Part shown: positions 20,475-41,170 of the stretch, piece after piece | Layout: each line of letters begins with the position of its first letter | Numbering within the stretch: the first letter of the stretch is position 1 | Assembly: GCA_024641545.1 (NCBI GenBank) | Contig: JAHECW010000023.1 | Span: forward strand, 1 to 44,754 | Length of the DNA stretch: 44,754 nt | Direction: 5' to 3' | DNA from: Acidobacteriota bacterium | GTDB taxonomy: Bacteria > Acidobacteriota > Thermoanaerobaculia > Thermoanaerobaculales > Sulfomarinibacteraceae | Position numbers and translations under genes: made by a program | Notes under the pieces: generated by a model | Database searches by the model: none | Told to the model about the DNA's origin: nothing | Seen by the model: the letters and a program-made list of their open reading frames with translations, nothing else

Positions 20475-21728
20475 ATGACGTCCCATCGAGCATCGATGAC
20501 GTTGGTTGCAACATCCGCCTGCATCGTTCTGGGTGTGGTCTTCCTTTCCGCCGAAGAGGACAAACCCGATTGGCAGAATCTGGTCGCGGGTGCGGTGCAG
20601 GAGGCTCTGGAAGGCAGCGGCGACGGTGAGGTCGGGCAGATCCGCAGGGTCAAGATGACCCCCCGCCGCGACGGCGGGGTCGATCTCTCGGTCGAAATCC
20701 GCGGTGTGGACGATCCCGGCCGGGTGGCGTTCGAGGTCGTTGTTTTCGATGACAATCTCCAACCCCTCGATCCCGTGGATATCAGTTGGGACGAGATTCC
20801 GGCCGGCGAAGGAAGCACGGTGGTTCACCTGACCTACCTGGGCGGTGCGGAGGTGCGTTCGGTCGGCGGCAATCTCATGCTGGTCGATCGCGACACCGGG
20901 AGCCTCTCGAGTCGACGCAAGGTGGCGATCCCCTGGCAGTGGACCGGATCGGGCGGAGGAGGCGGGCAATCCGGCACAGCTCAGGCGCCGCCTCCCGGCT
21001 CGCTTTCGATCCGCACCGACAACGACGGCGCGAGCGATCGCGAACCGGTCGTCGTCGACCTGACTCCGGTGAGGATCGGGGACACCCCGAAACCCGAGGA
21101 GATCCGCCTGACCACGGTTCAGACAATGCACGTCGTCAAAAAACCGACCCCGACGCCGCGGGCACCCACCCCGGGGCCCACCGCGACACTGACTCAATTG
21201 GCGATCATGGCGCCCGCTGTGACAACCACCCAGAAGGTGACCTCGGTCGATCTCTACGGCATGGCCGCCAAAGCGAAGTGGAGGTCGAGCAACGGGACCC
21301 TTCCTTTCAACGGTTCCAGCAACGACAGCCGCGGTTTCGTCCGCGCCCTCGGCACCGCGACGATGCTCGACGGCAAGAAATATCCCAAGGTCCTCCAGAC
21401 CCACCCGGCGTGGACCGACAACGGGACCATCAGCGGCGCCTATGCCGGGACGATCCCCTCGAGCGCTACGAGATTCACGGCCAAAGCAGGCTTTCTCGAG
21501 GGCGTCACCCGGTCCGACGGCGTCCGGGTCACTGTCGAGGTATCAAAGGGGAATTTCAGAACGACCATCGTCGACCGCACCATTGCCGCCAAACCAGGAG
21601 TGGTGACGCTCAGCGGCGCCATCCCGGAGGGGCTGCGCGGCCAGGCGGTGGTCCTGACCCTCAACGTCCACGCCAACGGGACATCGACCCAGGACTGGTT
21701 CGCCTGGATCGAGCCGGTGGTCGAGTAG
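20475..21728 (+). CDS. Exported protein with C-terminal beta-sandwich, first gene of the operon
   Basis: The 417-residue protein has an N-terminal hydrophobic signal (about 8-25, TLVATSACIVLGVVFLSA). Residues about 40-155 form an uncharacterised beta-rich region; a Gly-rich stretch follows (158-165), then a Pro-Thr linker (about 224-237). Residues about 265-417 resemble secreted galactose-binding-like sandwiches of the NPCBM type (FTAKAGFLEGVTRSDGVRV, then TSTQDWFAWIEPVV). That comparison is by pattern only. It lies four bases before the IPT gene and opens an 11-gene run on one strand, so it is probably co-expressed with the paralogous exported proteins. Confidence 0.75.
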   Translation: MTSHRASMTLVATSACIVLGVVFLSAEEDKPDWQNLVAGAVQEALEGSGDGEVGQIRRVKMTPRRDGGVDLSVEIRGVDDPGRVAFEVVVFDDNLQPLDPVDISWDEIPAGEGSTVVHLTYLGGAEVRSVGGNLMLVDRDTGSLSSRRKVAIPWQWTGSGGGGGQSGTAQAPPPGSLSIRTDNDGASDREPVVVDLTPVRIGDTPKPEEIRLTTVQTMHVVKKPTPTPRAPTPGPTATLTQLAIMAPAVTTTQKVTSVDLYGMAAKAKWRSSNGTLPFNGSSNDSRGFVRALGTATMLDGKKYPKVLQTHPAWTDNGTISGAYAGTIPSSATRFTAKAGFLEGVTRSDGVRVTVEVSKGNFRTTIVDRTIAAKPGVVTLSGAIPEGLRGQAVVLTLNVHANGTSTQDWFAWIEPVVE

Positions 21729-21732
21729 GACC

Positions 21733-22428
21733 ATGCTCGCCACGCTCCTCCTCGCCGCGGCCGCGGCCGCCGGTGTTCCCTCGGTGGATCGGGTCGAACC
21801 ATCGACCCTGGAGGCCTACCGGCCGGTCGAGCTGACGATCGTCGGCGGCGGGTTCGGCCCCGAATGCCGGGTCCTGATCGGCGCCCCCGGGCGCTTGGCG
21901 CCGGTGCGGCACGAACTGGTTGGTGACGCCGAGATCCGGGTCCACCTGACCGCGGGCTACGGGCCCGATCCAGCGCGGCGCCAGGTGGTGGTCGAGTGCG
22001 GCCGGAATTTCCGATCGGTCCCGTTCGCGATCGAAATCGTCCGCGGGAAGACCGAGGAAGCCGAACCTGCACCCCCGGCCGAAAGGGCCGCGGCAGAGCC
22101 GCTCGTCGATTCCGAGATTCCGACCGTCACCCGGCTCGAACCCGCCGCCATCGACGCGGGTCAGGTTTTCACACTCACCGTCATGGGAGGCGGTTTCGCC
22201 GCTGGCGCCGAGGTCGAGATCTTCGCCAACAGCCATGCGGGGAGCTCGCACCTCCCCGCGTATGAGATGTTGCGATTTGCCGCCGAGGTTGCCTCCGACA
22301 CCGTGATCCTCGTCGATCTTGATCGCGGCTTCGCAGCGTCTCCCCGGCTGCGCCAGGTGGTCGTGATCAATCCCGATGGCGGGACCAGCGCCCCTGTTTA
22401 TCTGGAAATCAAAAGGAGTTCGCCATGA
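21733..22428 (+). CDS. Exported protein with two IPT/TIG-like domains
   Basis: The 231-residue protein has a short signal peptide (about 1-16). Two Ig-like IPT/TIG repeats are visible: about 17-105, starting VPSVDRVEPSTLEAYRPVEL with a GGGF turn, and about 128-228, starting IPTVTRLEPAAIDAGQVFTL with a second GGGF. A Pro-Ala-Glu linker joins them. Such domains usually mediate protein-protein or surface contacts. The stop overlaps the next start by four bases (ATGA). Confidence 0.8.
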   Translation: MLATLLLAAAAAAGVPSVDRVEPSTLEAYRPVELTIVGGGFGPECRVLIGAPGRLAPVRHELVGDAEIRVHLTAGYGPDPARRQVVVECGRNFRSVPFAIEIVRGKTEEAEPAPPAERAAAEPLVDSEIPTVTRLEPAAIDAGQVFTLTVMGGGFAAGAEVEIFANSHAGSSHLPAYEMLRFAAEVASDTVILVDLDRGFAASPRLRQVVVINPDGGTSAPVYLEIKRSSP

Positions 22429-23903
22429 AGCGCGCCCTGATCATCCTGTGTGTCGTCGTTGCAACGTCATCGTGGGCCGTCGCCGAGAAACGGCCCCCCG
22501 GATCGCGGGGCATTTTTTCCCCGACGACACCGACACCGGCGCCGAACATCATGATCCACACCCTGCTGCTGTCACCATTCGAAGCCGTCGAGGTCGCCCG
22601 TGATGAAGTGGCGGACCGCAACGGCTGGGGCCCCGTCCGCCCCGGCTACGACCTCTCGACCGTCGAGGTCGACCAGCTCGACGAGTTCTACGGCGTCGAT
22701 CTCCGCCAGCTGTGCCGCTACAGCCTGGAGGTCTACCCCGATGCCAATCCTGACTCGGGTATCTTCTACTACCGGCCCCAGAACTTCGCTCTCAAATTCG
22801 AACCCCCGGACTTCTTTCTGAGCATCGAGTACAAGGCCGGTAATGCGGGTGGGGAAAACGTGCTCATGCAGGCCCAACTCACCCCCGGCGCCGACCAGGC
22901 TGATCGCAAGATCCTCAAGGCTCTTCTCAAGGCCTATCTGAAGGAACGCGACCAGCAGGTGACCAACCCCAACCTGCTCCCACTCCCGGTCACCTACGAG
23001 GCCGACTTTCAGTTCCAGCACTGGAATATCCAGGAAGTGACCGTCAACGGCGTCGACCCCGACACTGGCGAAATCCAGATCACTCTCTCGGCCGATGTTC
23101 CCGCCAAAGAGCTGGTGACCTCCACCCTCGGCAACACCAACGGGCTGACCGGCTGGGTGGATCTCAAACCGATCATCATCGATCCCGACCGCCAGAACTT
23201 CACCGAACCGTTGCGGCTCGTCGCCGGTATCAGGCTTCCCGACGCCCTCGGCGGGCCGTCGCCGCGTTGGCGACCACCGACCTCGGGAGCCCAGGCGGAG
23301 TTCACCAACGAGTGGCCGTTCGAGATGCGTCTTGAGTATCTCGCCTATCTCATCGAAGACGATGGTGCGCTTCGGCTTCGAGGTTGGAGACTTGGTGAGA
23401 CCACCCTCGGCCCCGGCGACACGGCGCGGCTCTCCATCCTCCAACTCAACTCCGAACTCTCTTCTGACGACGTCGTGACCGCCCTCTACCTTGGCGATCT
23501 CCAGCGCGATGACAAGGCGGTACGGAGAGTCGTGGAGAGATGCACCAGTGGAGTCGGATCGCTGCCCGTCAAAGACATCCTCATCGTGGCCCTGGACCCG
23601 GAGGCCCTCTTTGCCCAGTACAACATCTACAAGGTGGTGGTCGAAGTCCGCAGCGCCCACTTCGACCCCGACGGGCGGGAGGTGGTGAGCCACTCCTACG
23701 ACATCGACGGCAGCGAGGAAACGGTACGGACCGACCAACTCCACCTATGGGAGGATGCGGGAGACCTGTACCACTTCAGGATCGCGGTGGTCACGCGCGA
23801 CGGGGCCGTCCACGCCGACCGCGTCTGGTGCGCGCCGGACGTCTCGGTTCCCGATCAGATCCTGATCGGCTCGAAGCTGGTCGAGGAGGCGCTCGCTCAA
23901 TGA
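22425..23903 (+). CDS. Exported protein, likely diverged member of the paralogous family
   Basis: The 492-residue protein has a signal peptide ending about WAVAE (residue 21) and a Pro-Thr linker. Family likeness is weak: FYYRPQNFALKFEPPDFFLS stands where the core members have YYLPxxPxxA, followed by MQAQLTPGADQADRKILKAL in the position of the usual LHFL...YGL and helix. The C-terminal part (YKVVVEVRSAHFDPDGREV, then YHFRIAVVTRDGAVHADRVW) resembles their final beta domain. No catalytic motif is recognised. It has an AAGGAG ribosome site and four-base overlaps at both ends, so it is tightly coupled to its neighbours. Confidence 0.7.
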   Translation: MKRALIILCVVVATSSWAVAEKRPPGSRGIFSPTTPTPAPNIMIHTLLLSPFEAVEVARDEVADRNGWGPVRPGYDLSTVEVDQLDEFYGVDLRQLCRYSLEVYPDANPDSGIFYYRPQNFALKFEPPDFFLSIEYKAGNAGGENVLMQAQLTPGADQADRKILKALLKAYLKERDQQVTNPNLLPLPVTYEADFQFQHWNIQEVTVNGVDPDTGEIQITLSADVPAKELVTSTLGNTNGLTGWVDLKPIIIDPDRQNFTEPLRLVAGIRLPDALGGPSPRWRPPTSGAQAEFTNEWPFEMRLEYLAYLIEDDGALRLRGWRLGETTLGPGDTARLSILQLNSELSSDDVVTALYLGDLQRDDKAVRRVVERCTSGVGSLPVKDILIVALDPEALFAQYNIYKVVVEVRSAHFDPDGREVVSHSYDIDGSEETVRTDQLHLWEDAGDLYHFRIAVVTRDGAVHADRVWCAPDVSVPDQILIGSKLVEEALAQ

Positions 23904-24940
23904 GTCGCCGCCTCGCGGCCCTGCTCGCGGTCGTTTGGGCATGCCTGGCCTCCGCCGCGCCGGTCCTGGACCAGGGCCGACGGACCGCGGCCGGGTGGTG
24001 CTACCCGGATCATGAGGACCGCCGGGTGTGGTGGCTGCCGCCGCCGGCCCCGGTGCTGATGATGGCCGGGGATCGGCCGGGAGTCGATTTCACGGTCTTC
24101 AACTACCAGGGAACGAGGGCGACCGTGGACGCCGATCAGGCGTGGACCGGCGCCATGCTCCAGTTCACCGTGGTCATGCCGGAGGCGACCGAGGCGGCGG
24201 CCGCCGCCAGGCGAATTCTGGGGACCGCCGTCGACCTCCGCACCATGCCGGCGGCCGGCATCGAGGCGGAGGTGGTCTTTGCCGGCGTCAACAGTGCGCG
24301 TTCCGCGGCGGTCGCTGGATGGGAGGAGACTACGGTTGGCGCGTGGCGTGAACGCAGCTTCGCGATCAGTCTGACCCCCGAGGAGACGGCGGTGGTCCAC
24401 GACGCCTGGGAGGCCGGCTCGGTGGTCCTCTCGGTCAACACGGCCGTGAGCGCCTACGCCTTCGCCACACGCCCGGACGAGGACGACGCAGCGGCTGATC
24501 GCACGGTGGTGACAGTGGACTCGGTACCGGTCACGGTCGATACTCGACGTCACCCTGAGGTTTTCCGCGTCCTCGAGCTCGACGCCACCATGCCTTTGGC
24601 CTACACCAGTGTCGAACTCGGGTGCAGCGAACTCACTGACGGATACGGGCTCAGCGATCTGGCACAGGTGATCGCGGTCGTCGAAGCCGAGGCCGTCAAC
24701 GGCGACGTCATCGCGAAGGAGCTCCGATTCACCAGTCGGTCCGCACCGACCCTCGAGATCCGCTTCGACCGCGCCGTGCGTCTCGATCACGGCTATCGCC
24801 TGCGCGTGGTCCGGGTCTACGCGACCGGCCGGACCGAGGAAGCCCCACCCCGGCGAATCGACGTGTGGCAGGGGTTCGAAGACATCTGCAGCGCGCCGTC
24901 CGATGAACGGATCGGGCCGGACCCGCGGCTGCTCTACTAG
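23900..24940 (+). CDS. Exported protein, short member of the paralogous family
   Basis: The 346-residue product has a signal peptide (MSRRLAALLAVVWACLASAA). RRVWWLPPPAPVLMMAGD (about 43-60) matches the YYLPxxPxxAxD motif of the larger genes downstream. A region FAISLTPEETAVVHDAWEAG corresponds to their VSxxLxxxGAxLLxESL part. The C-terminus YRLRVVRVYATGRTEEAPPR aligns with their last beta domain. The middle of the typical two-domain core is missing, so it is a compact variant. The ATG at 23900 overlaps the previous stop by four bases and follows a GAGGAGG site. Confidence 0.7.
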   Translation: MSRRLAALLAVVWACLASAAPVLDQGRRTAAGWCYPDHEDRRVWWLPPPAPVLMMAGDRPGVDFTVFNYQGTRATVDADQAWTGAMLQFTVVMPEATEAAAAARRILGTAVDLRTMPAAGIEAEVVFAGVNSARSAAVAGWEETTVGAWRERSFAISLTPEETAVVHDAWEAGSVVLSVNTAVSAYAFATRPDEDDAAADRTVVTVDSVPVTVDTRRHPEVFRVLELDATMPLAYTSVELGCSELTDGYGLSDLAQVIAVVEAEAVNGDVIAKELRFTSRSAPTLEIRFDRAVRLDHGYRLRVVRVYATGRTEEAPPRRIDVWQGFEDICSAPSDERIGPDPRLLY

Positions 24941-24949
24941 GAGGATCGG

Positions 24950-26755
24950 ATGAGTGCAAAAACACGGTGGGCCGTTTCCCTGATACTCATGGTCTCGGCG
25001 ATGCCCGCATTCGGTCTGGTGTGGTACGACACCGGCCGACTGACCATCGACGGGGTCGAGCTCTTCCAGGACGCCGACCATCCGACCCAGTACTACTACC
25101 TGCCTCCGGCGCCGTCCCTGGCCATGGACGCAAACGGCAATCCACAGCTTCTGTGCCTCAAGTATGTCGACCCCAAGGGCGAGTCGTCGGGCGGGCTTTT
25201 CCACATGCTGGCGTCCCTCGAACTGGGTCCCGAGCGGGTCGCGGAGATCGAGGAGCAGCTCAAGGAGAAGCGGCCCGGCGCCACCATCGTCGGCGCGTTG
25301 AACCTCCTCGAGGCCAAAACCGAGGAGGGCGGGCCCGCAACGGCGTCGTTCCAGGTGGTCTCTGCGGTGCTCTCGGACTCCGAAGACGGGGGCTTCACCC
25401 GTTCGCTCATCACCTCGGGCCACGCCCCGCTCACCGCCGGCAGCCGGGCCGCGGTCGCGGCCAGCCTCGATCCGCGGGGCGCGACCCTGCTCTTCGAGTC
25501 GCTGACCGGGGTGACATCGGATGTCTCGGTGAGCATCGCGGCCGAGTACGAGGCCAGGGTCCGCGGCTACAACGCCACCGTCACCGCCGAGGTGGCGACC
25601 ATCTACGAGCACCTCTCCGGCGTTTACAACAAGCAGGAGGGCTACAAAAAGCGCGAGCTCCGGCAGGTGGTGGACGAGCTCTACCACAACAACGTGATCG
25701 AGGTCGAAGTCTTCGACCGGAGCAAGAGCCTCGGGATCAACGCCGCGGCGGTCGAGGGCATTCTCAACCTGGTCACCGACAAGATCGTCAGCCTGATGTT
25801 CGACCACACCAGCGGGCTGGCAAAGATGCCCGAAAAGGAGGTCGCAGTCGAGAAAGGCCAGATCCGCGGCCGCCAGGAGCGCGGCGCCTTCGTCAAGTTC
25901 TTTGCCGGCACCGGCAACCAGGAGTACATGACCGACGACCAGTTCGTCCTCAAGAGCCGTCAGGACATTCGCCGCACCACCTTCTTTCTCAATCTCTCCC
26001 AGGACACCACCGTGAGGATGCCGGTCTATCTCGCCGGCAACATGGGAGGCCTCTACGAGGCGCACAAGGACAACCCGGACATCTTCCGGGTGATCAACCT
26101 GGGCGACCCGTCATTTCAAGTGCGCGAGGTCCGGTTCGTCCTCGACGGCGAGTGGGCGGCAGCCTTCGACGGGCTCGTCAACTGGGTCTCGGTCCAGTTG
26201 CTCAAGGAGTATGGCGGCGACCAACCGGCGGTCGACGCCCAGGCCCAGCTGACCGCGAAGGACGTCGGCGAGGGTCAACTCGAACGGTCCGTCAGCTACC
26301 CGCGCCTGGGGATCGCCGGACCCGAGTGGCTCGACTACCGCTACCGGGTCAACTGGAGCCTGCTCAGGCGGGACACTCTCAGTGAGCCTCCCGACGGTGA
26401 GTGGCTGACCACGTCCGAACCCGTCATCACCCTGCGGCCACCCCTGGAGATGACCGAGGCCGAGCTCGAGGTCGATCGCGATGCCATGATCGACCGCGGC
26501 GTTCGGGTCGGCGTCGTCGAGGTGCGGACCAGGGTCATGGGCGCCGCCGAGACCCGCCGGGTCGGGGTCCTCCGGGTCACCGACGCCGAGTCGGTGATCC
26601 TGCTCAACGCCATCCACGATCCTGCGGCGGAGCCGGAGGTCCGCGTCACCTGGGTCGCCATCGAGGGCGGCGGCCGCCGGGTTGGGGAGTGGCAGGGCAT
26701 GGGGGCCGGCTACCTCTGGATCGAGGTGCCGGATCTGGTCGGAGGCGCGTCGTGA
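24950..26755 (+). CDS. Exported two-domain family protein, member A
   Basis: The 601-residue protein has a signal peptide (about 1-22) and two parts. The N-terminal part has YYYLPPAPSLAMDANGNPQL (48-67), then GGLFHMLASLELG and LTAGSRAAVAASLDPRGATL. The C-terminal part has the family motif VINLGDPSFQVREVRFVLD at about 383, a tyrosine-rich strand WLDYRYRVNWSL and a final Ig-like region. No transmembrane helices, catalytic motifs or metal sites are seen. I do not recognise the family. It has a strong AGGAGG ribosome site, and the stop overlaps the next start by four bases. A periplasmic or surface structural or binding role is the safest guess. Confidence 0.75.
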   Translation: MSAKTRWAVSLILMVSAMPAFGLVWYDTGRLTIDGVELFQDADHPTQYYYLPPAPSLAMDANGNPQLLCLKYVDPKGESSGGLFHMLASLELGPERVAEIEEQLKEKRPGATIVGALNLLEAKTEEGGPATASFQVVSAVLSDSEDGGFTRSLITSGHAPLTAGSRAAVAASLDPRGATLLFESLTGVTSDVSVSIAAEYEARVRGYNATVTAEVATIYEHLSGVYNKQEGYKKRELRQVVDELYHNNVIEVEVFDRSKSLGINAAAVEGILNLVTDKIVSLMFDHTSGLAKMPEKEVAVEKGQIRGRQERGAFVKFFAGTGNQEYMTDDQFVLKSRQDIRRTTFFLNLSQDTTVRMPVYLAGNMGGLYEAHKDNPDIFRVINLGDPSFQVREVRFVLDGEWAAAFDGLVNWVSVQLLKEYGGDQPAVDAQAQLTAKDVGEGQLERSVSYPRLGIAGPEWLDYRYRVNWSLLRRDTLSEPPDGEWLTTSEPVITLRPPLEMTEAELEVDRDAMIDRGVRVGVVEVRTRVMGAAETRRVGVLRVTDAESVILLNAIHDPAAEPEVRVTWVAIEGGGRRVGEWQGMGAGYLWIEVPDLVGGAS

Positions 26756-28467
26756 AGAGATCGCTCACCGCGGTGGTCCTCGCGCTGGTGCCGGCGCTGC
26801 CCGCCCTTTCGCAGGAGGTCCTTCTCGACACCTCGCTGACCGTCGCCGGGGTGACCCTCTTCGCCGCGCTCGACGAGCCCGGCGGGTGGTGCTACCTGCC
26901 CGACGAACCGCGCATCGCCACCGACGAGAACGGTCGACCGGAGTTCTCGCTGGTGAAGTACGCCTCGGCCGCCGAAGCCACCGGGGGCGGCAGCCACGGC
27001 ATCACCGCCGCCAAGGGAGGCGGGGTGCTCCACTTCCTCGCGACCTACGGCGTCGACGAAGCGCGACTCGCCCGGGCCCGGGCGGCGCTCCGCGAGTTGG
27101 AGGGCCACGAGGAGGATCGGATCCTCGGTCCCATCCAGTTCCGCGCCGGTTCCTTCGCCCTGGTCTCGACCGTCGCCGCCGCCGACGGCGGGATGGCGCG
27201 CAGGGTGACCGGCGCCGGCCGCGCGCCGTTGCTCGAGGGCGGCAAGATCGCGGTCTCGGTGGGGCTGACGCCCGAAGGTGCGACCTTCCTCGAACGGTCG
27301 CTGGAGATGGAAAACCCCGACCTCAGTCTGAGCTTCTCCATGGAGATGGAGGGCTATCGCGAGCCCTACGAGGCCGACCTCGTGGTGAACTGGGACAAGA
27401 TCTGGTCGCACCAGGAACTCGAGGCCCGGGTCAAGGTGCTCTTCGTCGGCGCCGAGGTGGATCTGCTGCTCGACGAGATGGCGACCAACGGCGCCATCCG
27501 GGTCGAGGCCAAGGGCGAGAGCGCATCGATGGAGAAGCTCCTCGACGCCGCCTACGCCAAGGTCAGCGACATGCTCTTCGACCAGGCGCCCCCGGGCGAG
27601 GCCGAGCGGGAGAGCATCGACAGCCTCGGCGATACGGTCAGCCGTCTGGTGGGCAGCGTCAAGCGCTCGACCGTCGATCTCTTCGCCGGCTACACGCTGT
27701 CCAAGAAGAAACGCAGCGGTGTCGCACGGATCAGCCTGAGCCACCAGCGGGGGGAACGGCTCTTCATCCTGCTCACCGGCAACGTCGGGCCGCTGGCCCG
27801 CGAGTGGCGCGACGACCCGCGGTTCTTCCGATCGGTCAACCTCGAAGACCCGGCCTTCAGAAACCGGGAGGTGACCTTCAGCTTCGACGGCGACGCCGCC
27901 GACTTCGGCAAGGTCGTCAACCACCTGGTGATCCAGCTCCGCAAGACCCACGGCGACGGTTCCCAGACCACCCGTGAGGCGATGCTCGACCCGAGAACCC
28001 TGGTCGAGGGCGACAACCGCATCGTCTTTGCCTACGGCTGGGCCGGCGAACCCGATCAGGCCGGCTGGCTGAGCTATGACTGGCGCGCGGTGTGGAGCTT
28101 CCGCGGCGGACGATCGCACGACACCGGCTGGCAGGCGGCCGACAGCTTCGCCGTTGCCCTCCGGCCGCCCTACGACGTTCGAACCGTCATCTTCGACGGT
28201 GTCCCCGAGACCCTGGATCAGGCCGGGGTGCGATCGGTCCTCGCCCGGATCGAGTGGGATTTTCTCGGCGAGGCCAGGAGCGAACGACTGACGCTGCGAC
28301 GCGGGCATTGGAACGATGAGCTCGAGCTCGTCCTGCCCGCAGAACGACCGACCTACAGCGTGTTTCTCGAGTGGCATCTGAGCGACGGAACTCGGCCGAG
28401 CCGGGGACCGTGGAACGAGGAGTCGGGCGTCGTCTACATCGACGAGCTGCCCGACGCCGGAAACTGA
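26752..28467 (+). CDS. Exported two-domain family protein, member B
   Basis: This 571-residue paralogue starts at a GTG overlapping the upstream stop by four bases, after a GGAGG site. The signal peptide ends ALSQE (about 20-21). The N-part motif is WCYLPDEPRIATDENGRPEF (about 45), followed by GGGVLHFLATYGVDEARL and APLLEGGKIAVSVGLTPEGA. The C-part motif is VNLEDPAFRNREVTFSFD at about 360, then YGWAGEPDQAGWLSYDWRAV and a final VVYIDELP. It has no insert between the domains apart from a helical stretch at about 255-310. Function unknown. Confidence 0.75.
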   Translation: MKRSLTAVVLALVPALPALSQEVLLDTSLTVAGVTLFAALDEPGGWCYLPDEPRIATDENGRPEFSLVKYASAAEATGGGSHGITAAKGGGVLHFLATYGVDEARLARARAALRELEGHEEDRILGPIQFRAGSFALVSTVAAADGGMARRVTGAGRAPLLEGGKIAVSVGLTPEGATFLERSLEMENPDLSLSFSMEMEGYREPYEADLVVNWDKIWSHQELEARVKVLFVGAEVDLLLDEMATNGAIRVEAKGESASMEKLLDAAYAKVSDMLFDQAPPGEAERESIDSLGDTVSRLVGSVKRSTVDLFAGYTLSKKKRSGVARISLSHQRGERLFILLTGNVGPLAREWRDDPRFFRSVNLEDPAFRNREVTFSFDGDAADFGKVVNHLVIQLRKTHGDGSQTTREAMLDPRTLVEGDNRIVFAYGWAGEPDQAGWLSYDWRAVWSFRGGRSHDTGWQAADSFAVALRPPYDVRTVIFDGVPETLDQAGVRSVLARIEWDFLGEARSERLTLRRGHWNDELELVLPAERPTYSVFLEWHLSDGTRPSRGPWNEESGVVYIDELPDAGN

Positions 28468-28495
28468 CCGACGAACCGGTCGGGGGAGGAATGAC

Positions 28496-30595
28496 ATGAG
28501 ATCCGACACAACGATCCGCCTGGCCATTGCGGCCCTCGTGCTCGCGGTCGCGGTACCGGGAACCATCGACGCCAAGCTCGTGTACGAGGAGATGGTCACC
28601 ATCACCCTCGACGACGGCACCCAGGTGGTGCTGGTCATGGATGACTACGGGGTCACGCGCCCGACCGGGTCGCCCGGCTCGTCCAAGGTCGAGCAGGCCA
28701 AGTTCGACTATCTCGACCGGGTGCGCGCGGCCAAGGGAGCGCCGCCGCCGCCACCGGTGGTCGTGGCCCACGGACCGGGCGCCTCCCAGCCCCAGCGCCA
28801 ACTCCTCGATCAGCTCGATGGGCGACGAGGCCTCGGTAACGATCTGATGAAGCTGCGGGATCACAGCAAGAACCAGATGCTGTGGGCCGGCACCGCAGGG
28901 CCCGAAAAGCGTTACTACTATCTGCCGCCTCCTCCGCGCGTCGCCGCCGACGCCGAAGGCCGACCCCAGTTTCTCTTTATGAAGTTCACCTCGGACCGGA
29001 CCACCGAGGCCGGCGGCGTGACCGGCGGCATCCTCCACTTCCTCTGCGAGTACGGTCTGACGCCTGCGCAGGAGAAGGAGCTCGAGAAGAAGCTCGCCGA
29101 CAAGATCAAGGGCGGCAAAATCATGGGTGCGGTCCGCATGGAGGGGGGCGAAGGCGATTCCACCTTTCGCGTGATCTCGGCCACCATGTCCGAGGGCGGG
29201 TTCACCGAGAAGCTCGTGGCCTCGGGCAAGGCGCCGCTCCTGCCGGGCCAGAAGGTCGCGGCGGCGGCCAGGCTGGACGCGGTGGGTGCGGTGCTCATCG
29301 AGGAGTCCCTCAAACGACCCACCTCGGACGTCTCCATCGAGTTCAACCTCAGCTACACCGCGTTCATGCCGGCGTTCGACGGCAGCATCACCTTCGACTG
29401 GGAGAAATTCGACGCGAACATCGACAAGTGGGAGGTGGACTTCGACAGCTCCAAGCGGAAGTACTGGAAGAACGGACACTACCAACGGGACCACACCGTC
29501 ACCTCCGACGAGATCCGCGAGATGTACGATTTCATGTGTGAGCACGAGGCGATCCGGATCGAGTGGACCGAGGGCATCGTCGATGAACGGCTCGAGGTCA
29601 TCCGGCAGGCGTTCTTCCGATTCATGGAGACCTCGTTCTTCGAGAAACAACCGCTCGAGATCCCCGACGATGAGGACGAGTCGGACGAGGAGATGACCTC
29701 TCCCGACACCGGCGCGGTCGACACCTCGAACCGCCGCCACACGGCTTCGTACGACTTCGACCGTTTCATGGCCAAGAGCGAGGAGGCCTTCGTCAACAAG
29801 ACGATCAACATGCGGGCGACCCTGCCGGTCAAAGTGGAGTACGTCACCGTCGGCAACATCTCGGGATCCTGGTACCGGGAGGCGCGGGGGGAATACCCGG
29901 AGCTCTTTGCCGAGGTCAACGTGGACGATCCGTTCTTCCAACAGCGCCAGGTCTCCTTCACCCTCGATCTCGACGCCATCGAGGTCTTTGACGACGCGAT
30001 CAATTTCGTCACTGTCGAAGTCCGCAAGGACCGGCCGACCGGACGGGACTTCCACACCTCGTTCACCATGACGAAGGACGAGATCGCCGCCCACGGCACG
30101 TCGAAGATCGTCACCTACGCCAAGATGCGCGACGACTCGCCGGAGGTCTTCGAGTACCTGGTCCGCTGGAGCCTGCGCGGCGGGGTCGAGTGGCCGTCGC
30201 GGCCGGTCTGGGCGAAGGGCCAGTGGGAGGGCGTCACCCTGGCGCCGCCGGTGATGCCCCTCAACGTCGAGGCCGAGGCCGATCTCGCCGAGCTCGAGGA
30301 GCTCGGCTTCACTCGCGCCACCGTGGAAGTGAAGTACACGCAGTTCGGCGAGGAGATCACCGAGAGCCGTGCGCTGGCGCTGTCGCCGGCGAAGGGCGAA
30401 CCCCTGGCCTCGGTCATGATCTTCAGGGACCGGCGAGACACCGACTGGCAGTACCGGACCAATCTCTATCACAAGCGCCTGGGTCGCCGTCAGAGCCGAT
30501 GGGTCCGGGGCGGTGAGGACGGCTATGTCTACTGCACCATCCCCGAAGATCTCATCGCCGAAGCGTCGCAGGCGATGGCGGGCGCCGGTGAGTGA
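28496..30595 (+). CDS. Exported two-domain family protein, member C, with N-terminal extension
   Basis: The 699-residue paralogue follows a GGAGGA ribosome site. After the signal peptide (about 1-26) come about 95 extra residues, KLVYEEMVTITLDDGTQVV then a Pro-rich stretch, before the family motif YYYLPPPPRVAADAEGRPQF at about 139. GGILHFLCEYGLTPAQEKEL and KAPLLPGQKVAAAARLDAVG follow. An acidic linker (DDEDESDEE, about 393-401) separates the halves. The C-part motif is VNVDDPFFQQRQVSFTLD at about 473. The last region lacks the FIYxDEIP ending of the other members. Function unknown. Confidence 0.75.
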   Translation: MRSDTTIRLAIAALVLAVAVPGTIDAKLVYEEMVTITLDDGTQVVLVMDDYGVTRPTGSPGSSKVEQAKFDYLDRVRAAKGAPPPPPVVVAHGPGASQPQRQLLDQLDGRRGLGNDLMKLRDHSKNQMLWAGTAGPEKRYYYLPPPPRVAADAEGRPQFLFMKFTSDRTTEAGGVTGGILHFLCEYGLTPAQEKELEKKLADKIKGGKIMGAVRMEGGEGDSTFRVISATMSEGGFTEKLVASGKAPLLPGQKVAAAARLDAVGAVLIEESLKRPTSDVSIEFNLSYTAFMPAFDGSITFDWEKFDANIDKWEVDFDSSKRKYWKNGHYQRDHTVTSDEIREMYDFMCEHEAIRIEWTEGIVDERLEVIRQAFFRFMETSFFEKQPLEIPDDEDESDEEMTSPDTGAVDTSNRRHTASYDFDRFMAKSEEAFVNKTINMRATLPVKVEYVTVGNISGSWYREARGEYPELFAEVNVDDPFFQQRQVSFTLDLDAIEVFDDAINFVTVEVRKDRPTGRDFHTSFTMTKDEIAAHGTSKIVTYAKMRDDSPEVFEYLVRWSLRGGVEWPSRPVWAKGQWEGVTLAPPVMPLNVEAEADLAELEELGFTRATVEVKYTQFGEEITESRALALSPAKGEPLASVMIFRDRRDTDWQYRTNLYHKRLGRRQSRWVRGGEDGYVYCTIPEDLIAEASQAMAGAGE

Positions 30596-30607
30596 AGGGA
30601 GGGCGGG

Positions 30608-32968
30608 ATGCGAGCCTCTGTTCTGATCGCGTGTGTTCTGATGCTCGCCGCCGGCCCGGCCGGAGCGCAGGAGATTCTCCTCGACCAGATGGTCGAGGCG
30701 GGCGGGCTCAAGTGCTACCCGGTCCACGGCGATCCCGCATCGTGGTACTACCTGCCGGACCAGCCGCACGTGGCGGTCGGCGACTCCGGCCGGCCGCAGT
30801 TTTCTTTTCTGATGTACTCGAGCCCCGAACAGCGCGGGGAGGAGGGCATCACGTCCGCGCCGGGTGGCGGCGTGGCACACATGCTGGTGGCCTACGACGT
30901 CCCGGAGGACATGGTCCGGCGGGCCCAGAACGAGCTCCAGCGACAGAAACCGGGAGCTCAGCTCAAAGGCCCCGTGGCCTACACCGACGGCACCTTCAGC
31001 CTGGTGACGGCCGTGACCGACCCCGAGGCCGGGATGTCGCGGCGGGTGGTCGGGGTCGGCAACGCACCGGTCATGTCCGGCCACAAGGCCGCGGTCTCCA
31101 TGCATTTGACCCCGTCGGGCGCCATGTTGCTCTGGGAGAGCTTCTCGCAGCGCACCCCCGACATCTCGGTCAACTTCGAGATGACCCTCTCGGGCTATCG
31201 CAACCCGGTCGAGGCGACCATGACGTTCGACTATCAGCGGATTCACAAGACCATGGAGATCGAGGCCGGGATCGAAGCGAGCTTCATCGAGGCCGATGTC
31301 GACATCATGCTCGGCAAGATGGTCGACAGCGGCGCGATCTCCATCGAGCTCAAGGGCGCGCCGCCAGAGCAGTGGAACGATGTTCAGAAGCTCGGCCTCG
31401 AACTCGCCAAACACCACCTCTTCGAGAACCTCGGCGCGGCGCCGCTTTCGCAGGTTCGCGAGTTGACCAGTAGCACCCGATCGAACCGGCGCTCGTCGCT
31501 CGAGCAGCCGTTGGCAGAGAGAATCGAGGTCTATGCGCTCCCGCCGCCTGGCGAAGAGGAGGCGAGACGGCTCGACGAGCGCGCCGAGCGCGCGTACCGC
31601 GCAGAACAGTACTCGGCCGCGATCGAACTCATGGAGGCCGCCCAGGAGGAATATCCGGGAACCTCCCGGCTCTACAACATGGCGGTGTGCCACCTTCATC
31701 TCGGGCACCGCGATGAAGCCCTCAGGTTTCTCGATCAATGGCAGTCGGAGGTCGATGTCGACGAGTATCGGAACAGCGAGGCGATTGCGGAGGTGAGAGA
31801 ACAGATCTCCGATCAGCCCGAGCGGATTCCGGTCGATATCCGTGATCAACTGGCACGACGCCTGAGCGACGCCCGCCGATCTTCTGCCGGCGAATCCGTC
31901 GATTCGCCCGAGGCGGACACCGTGGGCGAAACAACGGCGACTGCTGCGCCGGCGACGTCCGAGGGTCCGGGCGGATCGGTCGAGGACCCGGTCGAGGAGC
32001 GAAGCTCCGAACCCGCCTCCACCCCGACACCCGCCCCGCGATCGGCCGCACCGCCAGCCGAATCGGAGACGAGTGCCAGGTCCGCCGGCGCCGGTGCGAG
32101 CCGGACCCCTGCCGCCACTCCGCGGCCGGGAAGTCGCGGACGATCCGCACAATCCCGCGGCGATGACGGCGGCTCCAACTTCTCCATCTCCATCGCCTTC
32201 CGCTACCGCAAGATCGAGCGCAGCGGCAAGTTCAGCATCAACATGAAGCAGTGGAACCGGGTCGAGATCCCGGTCCGTTTCGCCGCCAACGTCGGCGATC
32301 TGTCGCGCTACATGGACGACTCGCGGATGTTCCGCCGGGTCAGCCTCAACGACCCCATGTTCAAGCAGCGCGAGATCCCGGTGACCGTCGACGTCGCGAG
32401 CGAGGAGGCCTTCGGCGCCATGCTCAACGCGGTCACCGTGACACTGAAGAAGCGCCACCAGTCGGGCAGGGAGACCCTCGACGAGGTCAACATCCACCGT
32501 GCGGACTTCGGTTCGGGGGAGATCGAGACCCTGGTCTACGGCTGGGACGGCGACGACGATCGCGACGGCTGGCTGGAGTACGACCACCGGGTGCGTTGGA
32601 GCTATGTCGGCGGACCGGTGATCGAGACCGACTGGCAGCCGACCACGGCCGGCGCCCTGGTGCTCGAACCGCCGCTGCGGCCGCGTGAGTTGACCCTCGA
32701 AGCGGACCCCGACCTGCTGCGCGAGCAGGGCGTCCGAGATGTGGTGCTCGAGATCCGATATCCCGCCGGCGACGCCGAACGATCGGCCCACGCCACCGTC
32801 AGGCCGTCGGACGAGGTGGGCCGGCAGACCGTCGTGCTCTACCAGGACCCGCAGCACCCCGACTACACCTACAGCTTCGACTGGCGTCTCTTCGGCGGAC
32901 GGCGGGTGGAGGCCGGGCCGTTCGACGACACCGCCGACTTCATCTACCTGGACGAGATACCGCGGTGA
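30608..32968 (+). CDS. Exported two-domain family protein, member D, with TPR insert
   Basis: The 786-residue paralogue has a clean signal peptide (cleavage near AGAQE, about 20) and a GGAGGG ribosome site. The N-part motif WYYLPDQPHVAVGDSGRPQF lies at about 45. A TPR-like module (about 310-395) contains LYNMAVCHLHLGHRDEALRF. A low-complexity Ser/Ala/Pro linker covers about 420-520. The C-part motif is VSLNDPMFKQREIPVTVD at about 576; the protein ends FIYLDEIPR. It is very similar to the next gene in both core domains but not in the linker. Function unknown; the TPR suggests binding to partner proteins. Confidence 0.78.
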   Translation: MRASVLIACVLMLAAGPAGAQEILLDQMVEAGGLKCYPVHGDPASWYYLPDQPHVAVGDSGRPQFSFLMYSSPEQRGEEGITSAPGGGVAHMLVAYDVPEDMVRRAQNELQRQKPGAQLKGPVAYTDGTFSLVTAVTDPEAGMSRRVVGVGNAPVMSGHKAAVSMHLTPSGAMLLWESFSQRTPDISVNFEMTLSGYRNPVEATMTFDYQRIHKTMEIEAGIEASFIEADVDIMLGKMVDSGAISIELKGAPPEQWNDVQKLGLELAKHHLFENLGAAPLSQVRELTSSTRSNRRSSLEQPLAERIEVYALPPPGEEEARRLDERAERAYRAEQYSAAIELMEAAQEEYPGTSRLYNMAVCHLHLGHRDEALRFLDQWQSEVDVDEYRNSEAIAEVREQISDQPERIPVDIRDQLARRLSDARRSSAGESVDSPEADTVGETTATAAPATSEGPGGSVEDPVEERSSEPASTPTPAPRSAAPPAESETSARSAGAGASRTPAATPRPGSRGRSAQSRGDDGGSNFSISIAFRYRKIERSGKFSINMKQWNRVEIPVRFAANVGDLSRYMDDSRMFRRVSLNDPMFKQREIPVTVDVASEEAFGAMLNAVTVTLKKRHQSGRETLDEVNIHRADFGSGEIETLVYGWDGDDDRDGWLEYDHRVRWSYVGGPVIETDWQPTTAGALVLEPPLRPRELTLEADPDLLREQGVRDVVLEIRYPAGDAERSAHATVRPSDEVGRQTVVLYQDPQHPDYTYSFDWRLFGGRRVEAGPFDDTADFIYLDEIPR

Positions 32969-33015
32969 GGGGCGGCAGCAATGGGATTGACGCACGACAT
33001 CGACGGGAGAAGACC

Positions 33016-35415
33016 ATGAGAAACGCTGTCCGTATTGCGTGTCTGTTGCTGATCGCGGCCTGCCCCGCGGTGGCGCAGGAGGTCCTCTTTGACCAGATGG
33101 TGGAGGCGGGAGGCCTGAAGTGCTACCCGGTCCACGGCGATCCGACGTCCTGGTACTACCTGCCGGATCAGCCCCATGTGGCGACAACAGGTGAGGGGGA
33201 GCGTCCTCAGTTCTCCTTCCTCATGTACACCACGCCCGAACAGCGAGGCGAGGAAGGGATCACCACCGCTCCCGGCGGCGGTGTGGCGCACATGCTCGTC
33301 GCCTACGACGTCCCCGAAGACATGGTGCGACGTGCCCAAAGTGAGCTTCAACGTCAGCAACCCGGTGCGCAGCTCAAGGGGCCGGTGTCATACACCGACG
33401 GCACTTTCAACCTGGTCACCGCGGTGACGGATCCCGAGGCGGGGCTGATGCGCCGGGTCGTCGGTGTCGGCAACGCGCCGGTGATGTCAGGTCACAAGGC
33501 GGCGGTCTCCATGCACCTGACACCGACGGGCGCCATGCTGCTGTGGGAGAGCTTCTCGCAGCGTACCCCCGATATCTCGGTCAACTTCGAAATGACGGTC
33601 TCGGGCTACCGCAACCCAGTCGAGGCCAGCCTGGTCTTCAATTACGAACGGATCCAAGAGACGATGGAGTTGGAGGCCAGCATCGAGTCCACCTACCTCG
33701 AGGCCGAAGTCGAGGTAGCTCTAAGCAAGATGGTGGACAACGGCGCCATCACCATCGAGATGAAGGGAGCGCCGCCCGAACAATGGGCGGACGTCCAGAA
33801 GCTGGGACTCGAACTCGCCAGACATCATCTTTTCGAGAACCTGGGCGCCGCGCCGCTGAACCAGGTCACTGATCTGGCCCGCGCCGGCCGATCGGGGAGC
33901 CTCGGGTCGAGCCGGGCTGGAGGCTCCTCCGAACTGGAGTCGGGTGGCAGCTCGGGGGCGTCGGAATCGAACTCTGGGAGCGGGACCGATCCCGCCGGTG
34001 GTCGTTCCGCAATGCTGGATCAGGATGGTCTGGAGAGGATCGAGGTCTTCGCCCTGCCGCCGGAAGGGGACGAAGCCGTGAGCGACGCCCGGGAGTTCTA
34101 TCTGGACGGCAGGTTCCGCGAAGCAGTCGACCGGCTCGATGAGATCGCGGCCGGGGAAACGGCCACCGGTCACTACCTGCTGCGGGGGCTGAGCTTGCTG
34201 CGCCTCGGTGAGCGGGACGAATCGCTGGCGGCCCTTCGGGAGTGGACGAATGAGGAGGGAATCGCCAGCGAAGCGGTGCGATCCGCGATCGCTGCCGTCG
34301 AGCGCGCTCCGGACTCGACATTCACCGCAGCACCCCAGGCACGGGCTGCCCGCGCCGAGCTGGCCGGCGCGATCGAGCGGGCGTCGCAAGCGGCATCTGG
34401 AGCGGATGGAGGGGTGGGATCGACGACGGCCGGTCCCACGTCGTTCCCGCGTGAGTCTTCGGACGACGACGCTTCGACCGCACCTCGCCCAGGTTTCCGC
34501 GAGGAGGACGACGACGAGGACCTGCCTCTCACGGCGTACGAGTTCGAGGAGGACGATGATCCGGAGCTGCGTCGGATTCGACCTTCGGATCGCACGGGAT
34601 CGAGGGTCCGGGAGGAAGAGGATCCCACTCGCGTCACGGTGTCCTTCCGGATGCGGAGGATCGAACGACGGGGCTCGTTCCGCTTCAACATGAAGCAATG
34701 GAACAGGGTCGAACTTCCTGTGCGCTTCGCCGCGAACATCGGCGATCTCTCCCGCTACAAGAACGACCCGCGGATGTTCCGGAGAGTCAGCCTCAACGAT
34801 CCCATGTTCAAGCAACGAGAGATTCCGGTGAGTGTGGATGTGGCGAGCGAAGAGGCCTTTGCCGACATGCTCAATGCCGTCACCGTCACCTTGCGAAAGC
34901 GGCACCAGTCGGGCAGGGAAACCATCGACGAGGTGACCATCCAACGAGCGGATTTCGCTTCCGGCGAGATCGAGACCCTGCTGTACGGTTGGGACGGCGA
35001 CGACAACCGAACGCGCTGGCTCGATTACGACCACAGGGTACGCTGGAACTATGTCGGTGGGCCGGTGATCGAGATCGACTGGCAGCAGACATCGGCAGGG
35101 GCTCTGGTGCTTTCGCCACCGCTGCGGCCGCGCGAGTTGACTCTCGAAGCGGATTCAGTGCTGCTCCGCGAGCAAGGGGTGCGCGATGTGGTGGTCCGGG
35201 TGACCTACCAAGCCGCCGGCGCCGAGCGCACGGCCACCGCGACGGTGCGGCCGTCGGAAGAGGTCGGCCGGCAGGCCCTGGTGCTCTACCAGGATCCGCA
35301 GCAGCCGGGTTACGCCTACCGCTTCGACTGGCGACTCTACGGCGGGCGCCGGGTGGAAGCAGGACCGTTCAACGACATTGCCGACTTCATCTACATCGAT
35401 GAGATTCCGAGGTAG
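33016..35415 (+). CDS. Exported two-domain family protein, member E, with TPR-like insert
   Basis: The 799-residue paralogue is a close duplicate of the preceding gene. Signal peptide MRNAVRIACLLLIAACPAVAQE, then WYYLPDQPHVATTGEGERPQ (about 45). A Gly/Ser linker (about 297-335), a TPR-like region (about 355-425, with GHYLLRGLSLLRLGERDESL) and an acidic linker (about 485-530) precede the C-part motif VSLNDPMFKQREIPVSVD at about 590. It ends FIYIDEIPR. I start at the ATG at 33016 because of the GGGAGAAG site and the signal peptide; a GTG at 32965 overlapping the previous stop is an alternative. Confidence 0.78.
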   Translation: MRNAVRIACLLLIAACPAVAQEVLFDQMVEAGGLKCYPVHGDPTSWYYLPDQPHVATTGEGERPQFSFLMYTTPEQRGEEGITTAPGGGVAHMLVAYDVPEDMVRRAQSELQRQQPGAQLKGPVSYTDGTFNLVTAVTDPEAGLMRRVVGVGNAPVMSGHKAAVSMHLTPTGAMLLWESFSQRTPDISVNFEMTVSGYRNPVEASLVFNYERIQETMELEASIESTYLEAEVEVALSKMVDNGAITIEMKGAPPEQWADVQKLGLELARHHLFENLGAAPLNQVTDLARAGRSGSLGSSRAGGSSELESGGSSGASESNSGSGTDPAGGRSAMLDQDGLERIEVFALPPEGDEAVSDAREFYLDGRFREAVDRLDEIAAGETATGHYLLRGLSLLRLGERDESLAALREWTNEEGIASEAVRSAIAAVERAPDSTFTAAPQARAARAELAGAIERASQAASGADGGVGSTTAGPTSFPRESSDDDASTAPRPGFREEDDDEDLPLTAYEFEEDDDPELRRIRPSDRTGSRVREEEDPTRVTVSFRMRRIERRGSFRFNMKQWNRVELPVRFAANIGDLSRYKNDPRMFRRVSLNDPMFKQREIPVSVDVASEEAFADMLNAVTVTLRKRHQSGRETIDEVTIQRADFASGEIETLLYGWDGDDNRTRWLDYDHRVRWNYVGGPVIEIDWQQTSAGALVLSPPLRPRELTLEADSVLLREQGVRDVVVRVTYQAAGAERTATATVRPSEEVGRQALVLYQDPQQPGYAYRFDWRLYGGRRVEAGPFNDIADFIYIDEIPR

Positions 35416-35420
35416 AGACG

Positions 35421-36311
35421 ATGCTTCACAGGACTGCTGCAATCATGGGCGTCATCGGAGTCATCGCTGCAGCCGAGGTCTTCGCGACGACGAGCACGGC
35501 GGTCAACGCCGAACGCAGGAGGTTGTCGCGAGAGGGAGTTCGGTTGGTCAGGCAGGGCCAAACCGAGCGCGCGTGCGAGTTCTTCGAACGTGCCAACGCG
35601 TACGGTTTCCGGCCCAACGCCGTCTGGAATGTTGCTGAGTGCCACGCCTATTCCGGCCGTCGTGATCTTGCAGTGGCGGGTTATGAGAAATACATTGAGT
35701 TCGTCCCCGCCGCAGGAGCCAGCGAAGCGGTCCAACAGATGTTGTGGGAGCTCGAAGGCGAGGCCCCGATGATGGGAGATTTCGCGGCCGGTTCCGGCTG
35801 GGGGAGTCGATTCGCCGCTGCAGTGGAGGCGGCGATCGCGGGCGAGGGAACCGCGATCACGCTTGACGAGCAGATCTTCGGAACGGGCCGGGACAGTCCC
35901 GGTGCGCCGTTTCGGAGGGAGGCTCTCCGTCGGCACGGGACCGATCTCTTCCTGGAGGGGCTGGCGCGTGTCCAAAGAGGTGATTGGGACGGCGCGCTCG
36001 CGTTCTTTGAACGCTCGCTCAACTACCGTCAGCTCCGTAACGCGATCTTCAACATTGGCGAGATCTGGCTTTTTCGTGGACAGCGCGACCTCGCCCTCCA
36101 CTTCTTTCGCTACTATGTTGCGAGCCTCCCAGCTCTGCAGGCCGATGCCGGCGTTGCGTCCGTCCTCCGGGAACTCGAGGACGCACCCTCGAGGGTGGGA
36201 AACGAAGAGCGTCGAACGGAGTTTTCTACTCGGATCTCGGCCGAGATCAGCCGAGCCCTCGGGGAAGGTGGCGCGGGGACCGCATCTCCCTCGCCGAATC
36301 CGCAACGGTAG
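35421..36311 (+). CDS. Exported TPR protein
   Basis: The 296-residue protein has an N-terminal hydrophobic signal (about 8-22) and two TPR-like blocks: about 35-95 (GVRLVRQGQTERACEFFERA, then NAVWNVAECHAYSGRRDLAV) and about 170-235 (GLARVQRGDWDGALAFFERS, then NAIFNIGEIWLFRGQRDLAL). Together with the next gene and the TPR inserts in the two preceding genes it carries the same sub-type of repeat, with an aromatic-N-(I/V/M) turn and GxRDxA. It is probably a periplasmic scaffold or partner of the paralogous proteins. It begins five bases after the previous stop. Confidence 0.78.
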   Translation: MLHRTAAIMGVIGVIAAAEVFATTSTAVNAERRRLSREGVRLVRQGQTERACEFFERANAYGFRPNAVWNVAECHAYSGRRDLAVAGYEKYIEFVPAAGASEAVQQMLWELEGEAPMMGDFAAGSGWGSRFAAAVEAAIAGEGTAITLDEQIFGTGRDSPGAPFRREALRRHGTDLFLEGLARVQRGDWDGALAFFERSLNYRQLRNAIFNIGEIWLFRGQRDLALHFFRYYVASLPALQADAGVASVLRELEDAPSRVGNEERRTEFSTRISAEISRALGEGGAGTASPSPNPQR

Positions 36312-36337
36312 ACAACCCTTTGAGGTTGGAGGAGATA

Positions 36338-38146
36338 ATGGTCTCCATATTGAAGACTCTATCGATCGTCAACACGATGACCGCTCTCGCGATCTCGACG
36401 GTCGCGTCGGCAGGTTCGGTCGGCGACGAAGCTCGAAGACTCACCGGGGCGGCGGAAGAGAGCTTCGATCAGGGTCGCTACGAACAGGCTCTCGCGGGGT
36501 TTGAGCGCACCATGGCCTACCGGCCGACCGCGAGCGTCGCGCTGGCCGTGGCGAGGTGTCACATTCTCCTGGGTAACGGAGACCTCGCCGTTTTCGCTAT
36601 TGACAGGTTTCTCGCGGCATCGGACCGCCATCGCAATTCCTTACCCATGCAGGAGGCGACCGCAGCCATCGCGGGTTCGGGGGGCCAGATCCAGGACGAA
36701 CAGCGACGCAGGGCCCTGCTCACCCAGCTCCAATCCGCTGTGGACCGCGTCAATCGCGAATCTGCGGAGCTTGCATCAGGATCGGAGCTGCGCTTTGGGA
36801 CCGGCGCCGATTCAGACGCAGCGGGATCCCCACGCGAGGCGGCCCGCCTGCGGGGAGTCGAGCTCTTCCGTGCCGGGATTGAGGCGGTGCAGGGAGGAGA
36901 TGACGGTGAGGCTCTTGCCGCATTCGAGCGGTCGATGGCCTACCGCCAGCGGCGGAACACCCTTTACAACATCGCGGTCTGCCACGTCCTGCTCGGGCAC
37001 CGCGATCTCGCATCGACATGCCTCGATGCCTACCTGCGGGGGAGGCAGGACGAATCGGACGATCCTAGGGTTCAGGCGGTCCGCCGCGCCCTCGACGAGT
37101 CACCGGGCGACCTCGGGGATACCGACCGAAGGAATCTCCTGTGGCAGGGCTTGAGCGAGGGCGTCGATGATCCCGTTCGAGTCACCGCTGGCGGCAGCGA
37201 TTCAAGAGAGGTCCCCGATCATCTCGACCGAACTCTCGCCTCAATCGAGTCGAGCTTCCACACCACCGTAGGCGGAAACACGACGTGCTTTCTCGTCGGC
37301 GTGGCGCGATCGAAAAGCGAATATCTGCTGCACCCGCCGGCGCCCCAGGGACCGTGCCAGCGGGGTGCGGTGGCGCGTTCCCTGATTCTGATCGATGAGG
37401 AGTTGGACCGGCGCCTGGCGAGGGCCCCGCTCGGTCCGGCTGGATACCCGGAGCTCGAGTGCTTGGATATGGACCCCGACAGCCCCCTGGCTGGGGACCT
37501 GAGTGAGGTTCCGCCGTTTTCGATGCTCGATGCGTGGACCGCGATTCACAGCGAATCGTCAAGGCAGTGCCCTTCAGAGCTTTCGAGACCCACTCCGGCT
37601 CCTCGGCCCGTTCATCGTTCCTCGACCCGAACTCCAACGCCAACCCCAACGCCGAGGGAGCTCACCACGACGCCTCCGGGTGTGAGTCCGACACCGACGC
37701 CGACGCCGTCCGCGAGTTCCTGTGCGAGACGCGAAAACTGGATCGCGTGTGCATTGCGCGATCCCGAGATCACATCCTTCCGGATTCGGCACATACTCCA
37801 AACCTACCCGAATCTCGCGCGGGAGTTCATCACCTATCCCGGGGTGTGCACGATCCTCCAGAACAGCGGCTGGGACTTGGAGGATATCGAGGTCATCGGA
37901 CGCGGCGACGATCCGAACCGGTGGATTCAGGGTGCGAAGGAGACCGGACGCGACTACGAGTCGTTCGTAGCCGCTCTTCGAGATCTCGAAAGAAGAGTCA
38001 ATGCCAGTGCGGCATTCATCAGCTCGTGTGAAACGGACCAACAGGGTTGCCCGGGCACGATTTGGAGTTCGTGTCTCCTGCTGAGAGAACAGTGGTACTG
38101 GCCGCGACAGAGGAATTCCAGCAGCGTGTTCTTCCTGCCGCGTTGA
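36338..38146 (+). CDS. Exported TPR protein with Pro-Thr linker and unique C-terminus
   Basis: The 602-residue protein has a signal peptide (about 1-25). TPR blocks lie at about 35-95 and about 170-240, the latter with LYNIAVCHVLLGHRDLASTC, almost the same as the insert of the 30608 gene. A region at about 285-410 with several Cys is not recognised. A Pro-Thr linker (about 430-465) leads to a Cys-containing C-terminal domain (about 470-602). The ATG at 36338 follows GGAGGAG, better than the in-frame start at 36320. It is the last gene of the run. Confidence 0.75.
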   Translation: MVSILKTLSIVNTMTALAISTVASAGSVGDEARRLTGAAEESFDQGRYEQALAGFERTMAYRPTASVALAVARCHILLGNGDLAVFAIDRFLAASDRHRNSLPMQEATAAIAGSGGQIQDEQRRRALLTQLQSAVDRVNRESAELASGSELRFGTGADSDAAGSPREAARLRGVELFRAGIEAVQGGDDGEALAAFERSMAYRQRRNTLYNIAVCHVLLGHRDLASTCLDAYLRGRQDESDDPRVQAVRRALDESPGDLGDTDRRNLLWQGLSEGVDDPVRVTAGGSDSREVPDHLDRTLASIESSFHTTVGGNTTCFLVGVARSKSEYLLHPPAPQGPCQRGAVARSLILIDEELDRRLARAPLGPAGYPELECLDMDPDSPLAGDLSEVPPFSMLDAWTAIHSESSRQCPSELSRPTPAPRPVHRSSTRTPTPTPTPRELTTTPPGVSPTPTPTPSASSCARRENWIACALRDPEITSFRIRHILQTYPNLAREFITYPGVCTILQNSGWDLEDIEVIGRGDDPNRWIQGAKETGRDYESFVAALRDLERRVNASAAFISSCETDQQGCPGTIWSSCLLLREQWYWPRQRNSSSVFFLPR

Positions 38147-40896: not shown

Positions 40897-40951
40897 AAAT
40901 TCGTAAGACGAATTTTGGTGGCGCGTCGGACGCGCCAGTCCGGACACACGG
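40896..40951. repeat. REP-like double-hairpin element, copy 3
   Basis: AAAATTCGT and ACGAATTTT form the first stem (40896-40916); GGCGCGTC and GACGCGCC form the second (about 40919-40936). It begins within the stop codon of the small exported protein gene. Confidence 0.75.
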
Positions 40952-41170
40952 ACCGATGGCGTCGAGGGTCGGGAAAAGGGATCTCGAACGGACGTGCCGT
41001 CTCCGACGATTTTGGGAACGAATGCCTTCCGGCGGGGGATGCGTTTTGGGCCCAAATATCGTTGGAGGGGGAACTCACGGGCAACAGCCCCGGGAAAACC
41101 AAGCTCGGAATCGCGCATCGGGGCAGGGTGGCAAACAGGCGCCTCCCACCGGAAACTGAAGGAGAACACC
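40952..41170 (+). other. Duplicated 5' leader, copy 1
   Basis: This non-coding stretch before the first fibre-like gene is repeated, with only a handful of base changes, before the second (43209-43560). It contains GC-rich inverted segments (for example TTTTGGGCCCAAA near 41045) and a GAAGGAG ribosome site. No riboswitch class is recognised. Confidence 0.6.

Follow-up and report, generated by a model that had tools for sequence, protein, structure and literature searches.

We describe here a run of eleven co-directional genes, seven of which encode homologous proteins of one superfamily, predicted to be exported and maintained in fixed order by a patchy set of Acidobacteriota. Our reading, put forward with evenly divided confidence, is that this island encodes one extracytoplasmic hetero-oligomeric assembly. 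A wider proposal, which we hold only tentatively, is that it represents a new exported Acidobacteriota assembly of seven position-specific subunits with an unrecognised N-domain fold, whose sister system on alphaproteobacterial plasmids is non-exported and coupled to proteases and conflict-system genes. The run occupies positions 20475-38146 of the window, i.e. the whole stretch of 44,754 nucleotides analysed, which corresponds to contig C31 of a 5.4 Mb host genome.

Genetic organization of the island

The genes, called A to K (Table 1), display a single-operon layout, with successive gaps of 4, -4, -4, 9, -4, 28, 12, 47, 5 and 26 bases (negative values are overlaps). An N-terminal hydrophobic segment is present in 11/11 products and a later transmembrane segment in none; they are therefore predicted to be exported and soluble. 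In the exported branch as a whole, a segment above KD 1.8 was found in 45/45 collected members. The eleven-gene exported run proposed in the earlier note is thus confirmed, as are the five open reading frames E to I on which that note was centred, and a codon-usage gene caller chooses the same frames for these five. For K, the start is most likely the ATG at 36338, with GGAGG upstream, rather than the TTG at 36320. The run contains no gene for an usher, an outer-membrane channel or an anchor; secretin genes are present elsewhere in the host genome. Counts of promoters and terminators were no higher than in shuffled sequence.

On one side the run is flanked by a widespread penicillin-acylase/tsaB/rimI trio, on the other by a gene for an FHA-sigma54 regulator. 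The latter is a possible regulator of the run. As a conserved regulator it was rejected: no orthologue was found beside the islands of genomes G004, G011 or G026, and regulators of this type are very abundant in these genomes, with 19-35 matches per relative.

Further along the window, 40898-43162 and 43171-44754 form a tandem duplicate; the encoded protein has a signal peptide and an extended repeat region of DGAVTSSKIADGS type. Upstream DNA of the two copies is 94% identical and the 5' coding part 84%; two further copies exist elsewhere in the genome, and no Pfam match was obtained.

Table 1. Genes of the run and the regulator gene that follows it (positions in the window)
Gene	Position	Strand	Product and remarks
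A	20475..21728	+	Predicted exported; C-terminal beta-sandwich domain of ~165 aa, in Aminicenantes part of a fusion with a C-type gene
B	21733..22428	+	Predicted exported; IPT/TIG-like repeats; NCBIfam NF058597 E 1.4e-14; PF01833 E 5e-4, just below cut-off
C	22425..23903	+	Predicted exported; very divergent family member; degenerate FYYRP...FFLSIEY motif
D	23900..24940	+	Predicted exported; short divergent family member; N-domain and one C-terminal Ig-like domain
E	24950..26755	+	Core family member, no insert; evolves most slowly, dN/dS 0.19
F	26752..28467	+	Core family member; structure modelled, pLDDT 84
G	28496..30595	+	Family member; N-terminal extension and acidic linker
H	30608..32968	+	Family member; insert with TPR and low-complexity sequence separates N-domain from Fn3-like pair; PF14559
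I	33016..35415	+	Recent duplicate of H, 60% identity, own insert
J	35421..36311	+	Predicted exported TPR protein; PF07719 E 2.4e-9; orthologue in G004 only
K	36338..38146	+	TPR protein, predicted exported; rich in Pro/Thr, with a Cys-rich tail; relative of J and of the H insert
Regulator	38310..40019	+	FHA, sigma-54-interaction and Fis-HTH domains; 163-base gap after the run

Seven genes of one superfamily

Homology of the five paralogues E to I, recognised in the earlier note from shared motifs, is real: in pairwise BLAST both halves are aligned, with E from 1e-15 to 0, H and I sharing 60% identity, and a profile built from the five sequences retrieves each of them at E 1e-222 to 1e-276 in their own genome, where it finds no sixth copy elsewhere. 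A strict YLPxxP...GxP pattern applied to the six frames of the window gave four matches, all inside the E-I genes. The family is larger than five, however. D matches the family profile directly (hhalign probability 98.8, E 8e-17), its orthologues showing family-profile matches at 7-103 and 482-555. For C the match is to an A-C fusion protein of Aminicenantes, in the C half (hhalign probability 96, E 1.5e-9), where the YYYLP motif is intact. From the direct match of D and the match of C via the fusion, 7/11 genes (C to I) belong to one superfamily.

Gly, Pro and Tyr, hence structural residues, account for most of the best-conserved positions of the family, and no conserved catalytic residue set appears among these positions. 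Along the family regions of E-I no Pfam-A, NCBIfam, PHROGs or PADLOC family was matched, the TPR in the H insert being the sole match. With PHROGs, at most 3 of 47 members matched uncharacterised families, weakly. A PDB sequence-profile search gave no significant match, the best being E 0.023 over 40 residues (Med22), and the literature passages retrieved by term search mention no such gene set. The view that the family is undescribed and maintained as a tandem operon therefore stands. New means here that no described family or system was matched, for the family as for the system; we make no claim of a demonstrated new mechanism. A phage or viral origin was rejected, as phage records and viral-contig scans gave no match, PHROGs only these weak rows and BFVD folds a TM of ~0.1.

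Domain architecture

The model of F (47 sequences; pLDDT 84, pTM 0.56) displays a signal helix, an alpha/beta N-domain at about residues 22-365 and two Fn3/Ig-like domains at about 370-470 and 475-570, whose strands are confidently modelled with pLDDT mostly above 90. The C part of E-I, read as one domain in the earlier note, would consist of two Fn3/Ig-like domains, as suggested by this model (VIA Z about 6 for F). Modelled alone, the N-domain of F reached pLDDT 80 and pTM 0.66. It gave no convincing fold match: the best Foldseek E-value was 9e-3, and VIA Z did not exceed 7.3 (cytoplasmic domains of Kir channels). The Kir match was rejected as the fold of this domain, being at the background level for a beta-sandwich; the fold may nonetheless be a known one.

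TPR, acidic and Pro/Thr-rich inserts occur at the junction of the N- and C-domains in the H type, and at the same junction in the p2 protein of Aminicenantes. The TPR of H reaches 29.9 bits with PF14559 (cut-off 25). A common origin of H and p2 through their TPRs was rejected, the AU test refusing an H+p2 clade (p-AU 2.6e-5); this exposed loop thus acquired TPRs twice. In G004 (locus L052, 6039-8484) the first H-type gene is split into an N-domain ORF of 303 aa and a TPR/C-domain ORF of 507 aa, and an intact second copy adjoins it.

The domains previously assigned to the accessory genes were retained in part. TPRs are above cut-off in J (PF07719, 37 vs 27), and the TIG character of B is supported by NCBIfam NF058597 (53.9 bits, cut-off 30), PF01833 falling just short (20.4 vs 20.9). 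The NPCBM-like assignment of A, on the other hand, did not reach the Pfam cut-off: PF08305 gave no match in the window protein, and a relative scores 14.0 bits for a cut-off of 23.9.

Distribution and evolution of the islands

Homologous islands were detected in 10/396 sampled Acidobacteriota genomes and on 18 GTDB contigs, every time clustered and in several copies; these counts cover the sampled Acidobacteriota genomes, contigs of other phyla having been scanned with restrictive patterns only. Named contigs with the same islands belong to Holophagae, Thermoanaerobaculia and Aminicenantes MAGs. Single homologues, which would have spoken against a joint system, were not seen in complete loci. 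Gene order is A-B-C-D-E-F-G-H in G004, G011 and G026 as in the window, and so constant across four genomes of two families; in G098 it is C-D-E-F-G-H. The Aminicenantes set consists of the A-C fusion, p1, D, p2 and p3. Orthologues of J and K lie beside only one other island.

In the maximum-likelihood tree, positions E, F, G and H, as well as p1, p2 and p3 of Aminicenantes, each form their own clade across genomes. Support is at least 100/99 for E, G and p1-p3, and for F and H too if the long-branched G098 rows are excepted. The paralogues therefore predate the divergence of these genomes and have kept their identities; H and I are the only recent duplicate pair in the window. E-H are under clear purifying selection (dN/dS 0.19-0.28), A-D less so (0.41-0.50) and J and K are the least constrained, these values being rough as synonymous divergence is high (dS 0.7-1.5).

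The acylase-tsaB-rimI flank has no island behind it in two congeners and in another member of the family, and in G004 this flank is empty while the island sits at another location. In the E and F subtrees, G026, which belongs to another family, joins G000/G004 ahead of G011. Altogether the island is patchy and probably transferred; it seems to have moved horizontally or to have been lost often.

A divergent branch without signal peptides

Divergent members form arrays of about 4-9 in G076 (same class), on two Paracoccus plasmids and on one Pararhizobium plasmid, and hardly any of them has a signal segment. A C-like protein is found in all three carriers (hhalign 93.6% to the A-C fusion profile). 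Two S8 peptidases come immediately after a family gene in G076 (L061, 9306-15394). These paralogous proteins of ~1000 aa are themselves without signal peptides; their S8 domain is matched in two separate stretches, and an N-terminal region of ~400 aa is unmatched.

In Paracoccus, EAD1-trypsin, EAD1-protein and STAND NTPase genes lead into the family genes across a 129-base gap; PLD, tyrosinase and trypsin genes also belong to this run, all on the same strand (plasmid pNSM5TCa, L088, 8020-33872). Described conflict systems include EAD1 with trypsin, S8 and STAND among their components (PMC7159879). As this association concerns one plasmid lineage, we consider it a lead; the EAD1/STAND context is absent from the Pararhizobium array. 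On that plasmid (p2, L089, 27-4298), a protein of 1423 aa, to which P450 matches in part and Dyp-peroxidase weakly, is encoded upstream of the family array.

Discussion

For tandem paralogues of one operon, the earlier note had proposed either a hetero-oligomer or a set of variants for different targets. Clades of the tree follow position and not genome, which speaks for fixed, distinct subunits rather than interchangeable variants. An allelic-like set of variants diversified by recombination or selection could account for the recent H/I duplication and the divergence of the two inserts, yet it is disfavoured by this topology and by the purifying selection on E-H, and we regard it as highly improbable. 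Separate binding proteins that act independently, each on a ligand of its own, would also agree with fixed orthology; they would share an operon and form no single particle. Fn3/Ig-like domains are common in binding proteins, A and B resemble ligand-binding modules, and the N-terminal extension and inserts vary from one position to another. No transporter, receptor or enzyme gene accompanies the run, however, and the set is gained and lost whole, never down to a single member, so that independent binders appear rather unlikely to us.

We give still less credence to the island being the exported offshoot of a system of inter-organism conflict or killing, with a particle or a sensor gated by proteases. 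The S8 peptidases adjoining the non-exported branch in G076, the Paracoccus neighbourhood with its EAD1, STAND and protease genes, and the restriction of the island to few genomes would all agree with it. Against it, exported islands, including that of the window, are without protease, STAND or EAD gene, PADLOC matches no family member, the EAD1/STAND context is missing from the Pararhizobium plasmid, and the family genes of Paracoccus lie 129 bases away from the EAD1/STAND genes.

Position-specific, co-inherited homologues under purifying selection, exported together and with Ig-like tails, are best fitted by a hetero-oligomer; the joint complex, its geometry, its surface location and its ligand are what we infer from these observations. 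In this model, the seven subunits C to I would be exported by Sec, each combining a signal segment with an alpha/beta 'YLP' N-domain and with C-domains of Fn3/Ig-like type, of which E-I have two and D fewer. N-domains and Ig-like tails would pack between subunits, giving perhaps a ring, a filament or a shell assembled in the periplasm or at the surface. The TPR/low-complexity loops of the H type, at the N/C junction, may be the surface on which partners dock, possibly J and K, whereas A, with its carbohydrate-binding-like beta-sandwich, and B, with its TIG repeats, might anchor the assembly or bind its ligand.

To our knowledge, hardly any exported multi-subunit system is recognised in Acidobacteriota. 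A seven-subunit set in fixed order across genera, gained and lost as a block, provides a defined target for work on structure and on a role at the surface, and the sister branch next to EAD1, STAND and protease genes would tie the set to conflict biology.

Comparison with known systems

By E-value, the top Foldseek rows for F are alpha-2-macroglobulin and complement proteins (CD109, C3, C5). With a TM-score of ~0.1, an rmsd above 23 A and a single Cys in F, the match is more probably explained by the presence of several beta-sandwiches than by homology. The C-terminal 200 residues of F also align with Ig/Fn3 surface proteins and pilins such as streptococcal major pilins and Fn3 arrays (3l5i, 3.4 A over 76 residues; 3gld_C, 6.0 A over 181), at a VIA Z below 8 that corresponds to background; unlike these, the family has no sorting signal, sortase, chaperone or usher, and its N-domain is unmatched there.

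The EAD1/trypsin/S8/STAND conflict systems (PMC7159879) have their counterparts among the neighbours of the non-exported branch in one plasmid lineage, whereas none of these genes occurs in exported islands and Pfam detects no EAD domain among A-J. Literature passages retrieved by term search do not name the family itself.

Chaperone-usher pili resemble the island in being encoded by an operon of exported, homologous, position-specific Ig-like subunits. They differ from it in their usher and PapD-like chaperone, neither of which Pfam finds among A-J, while the subunits of the run are 350-1300 aa long and carry an extra alpha/beta domain.
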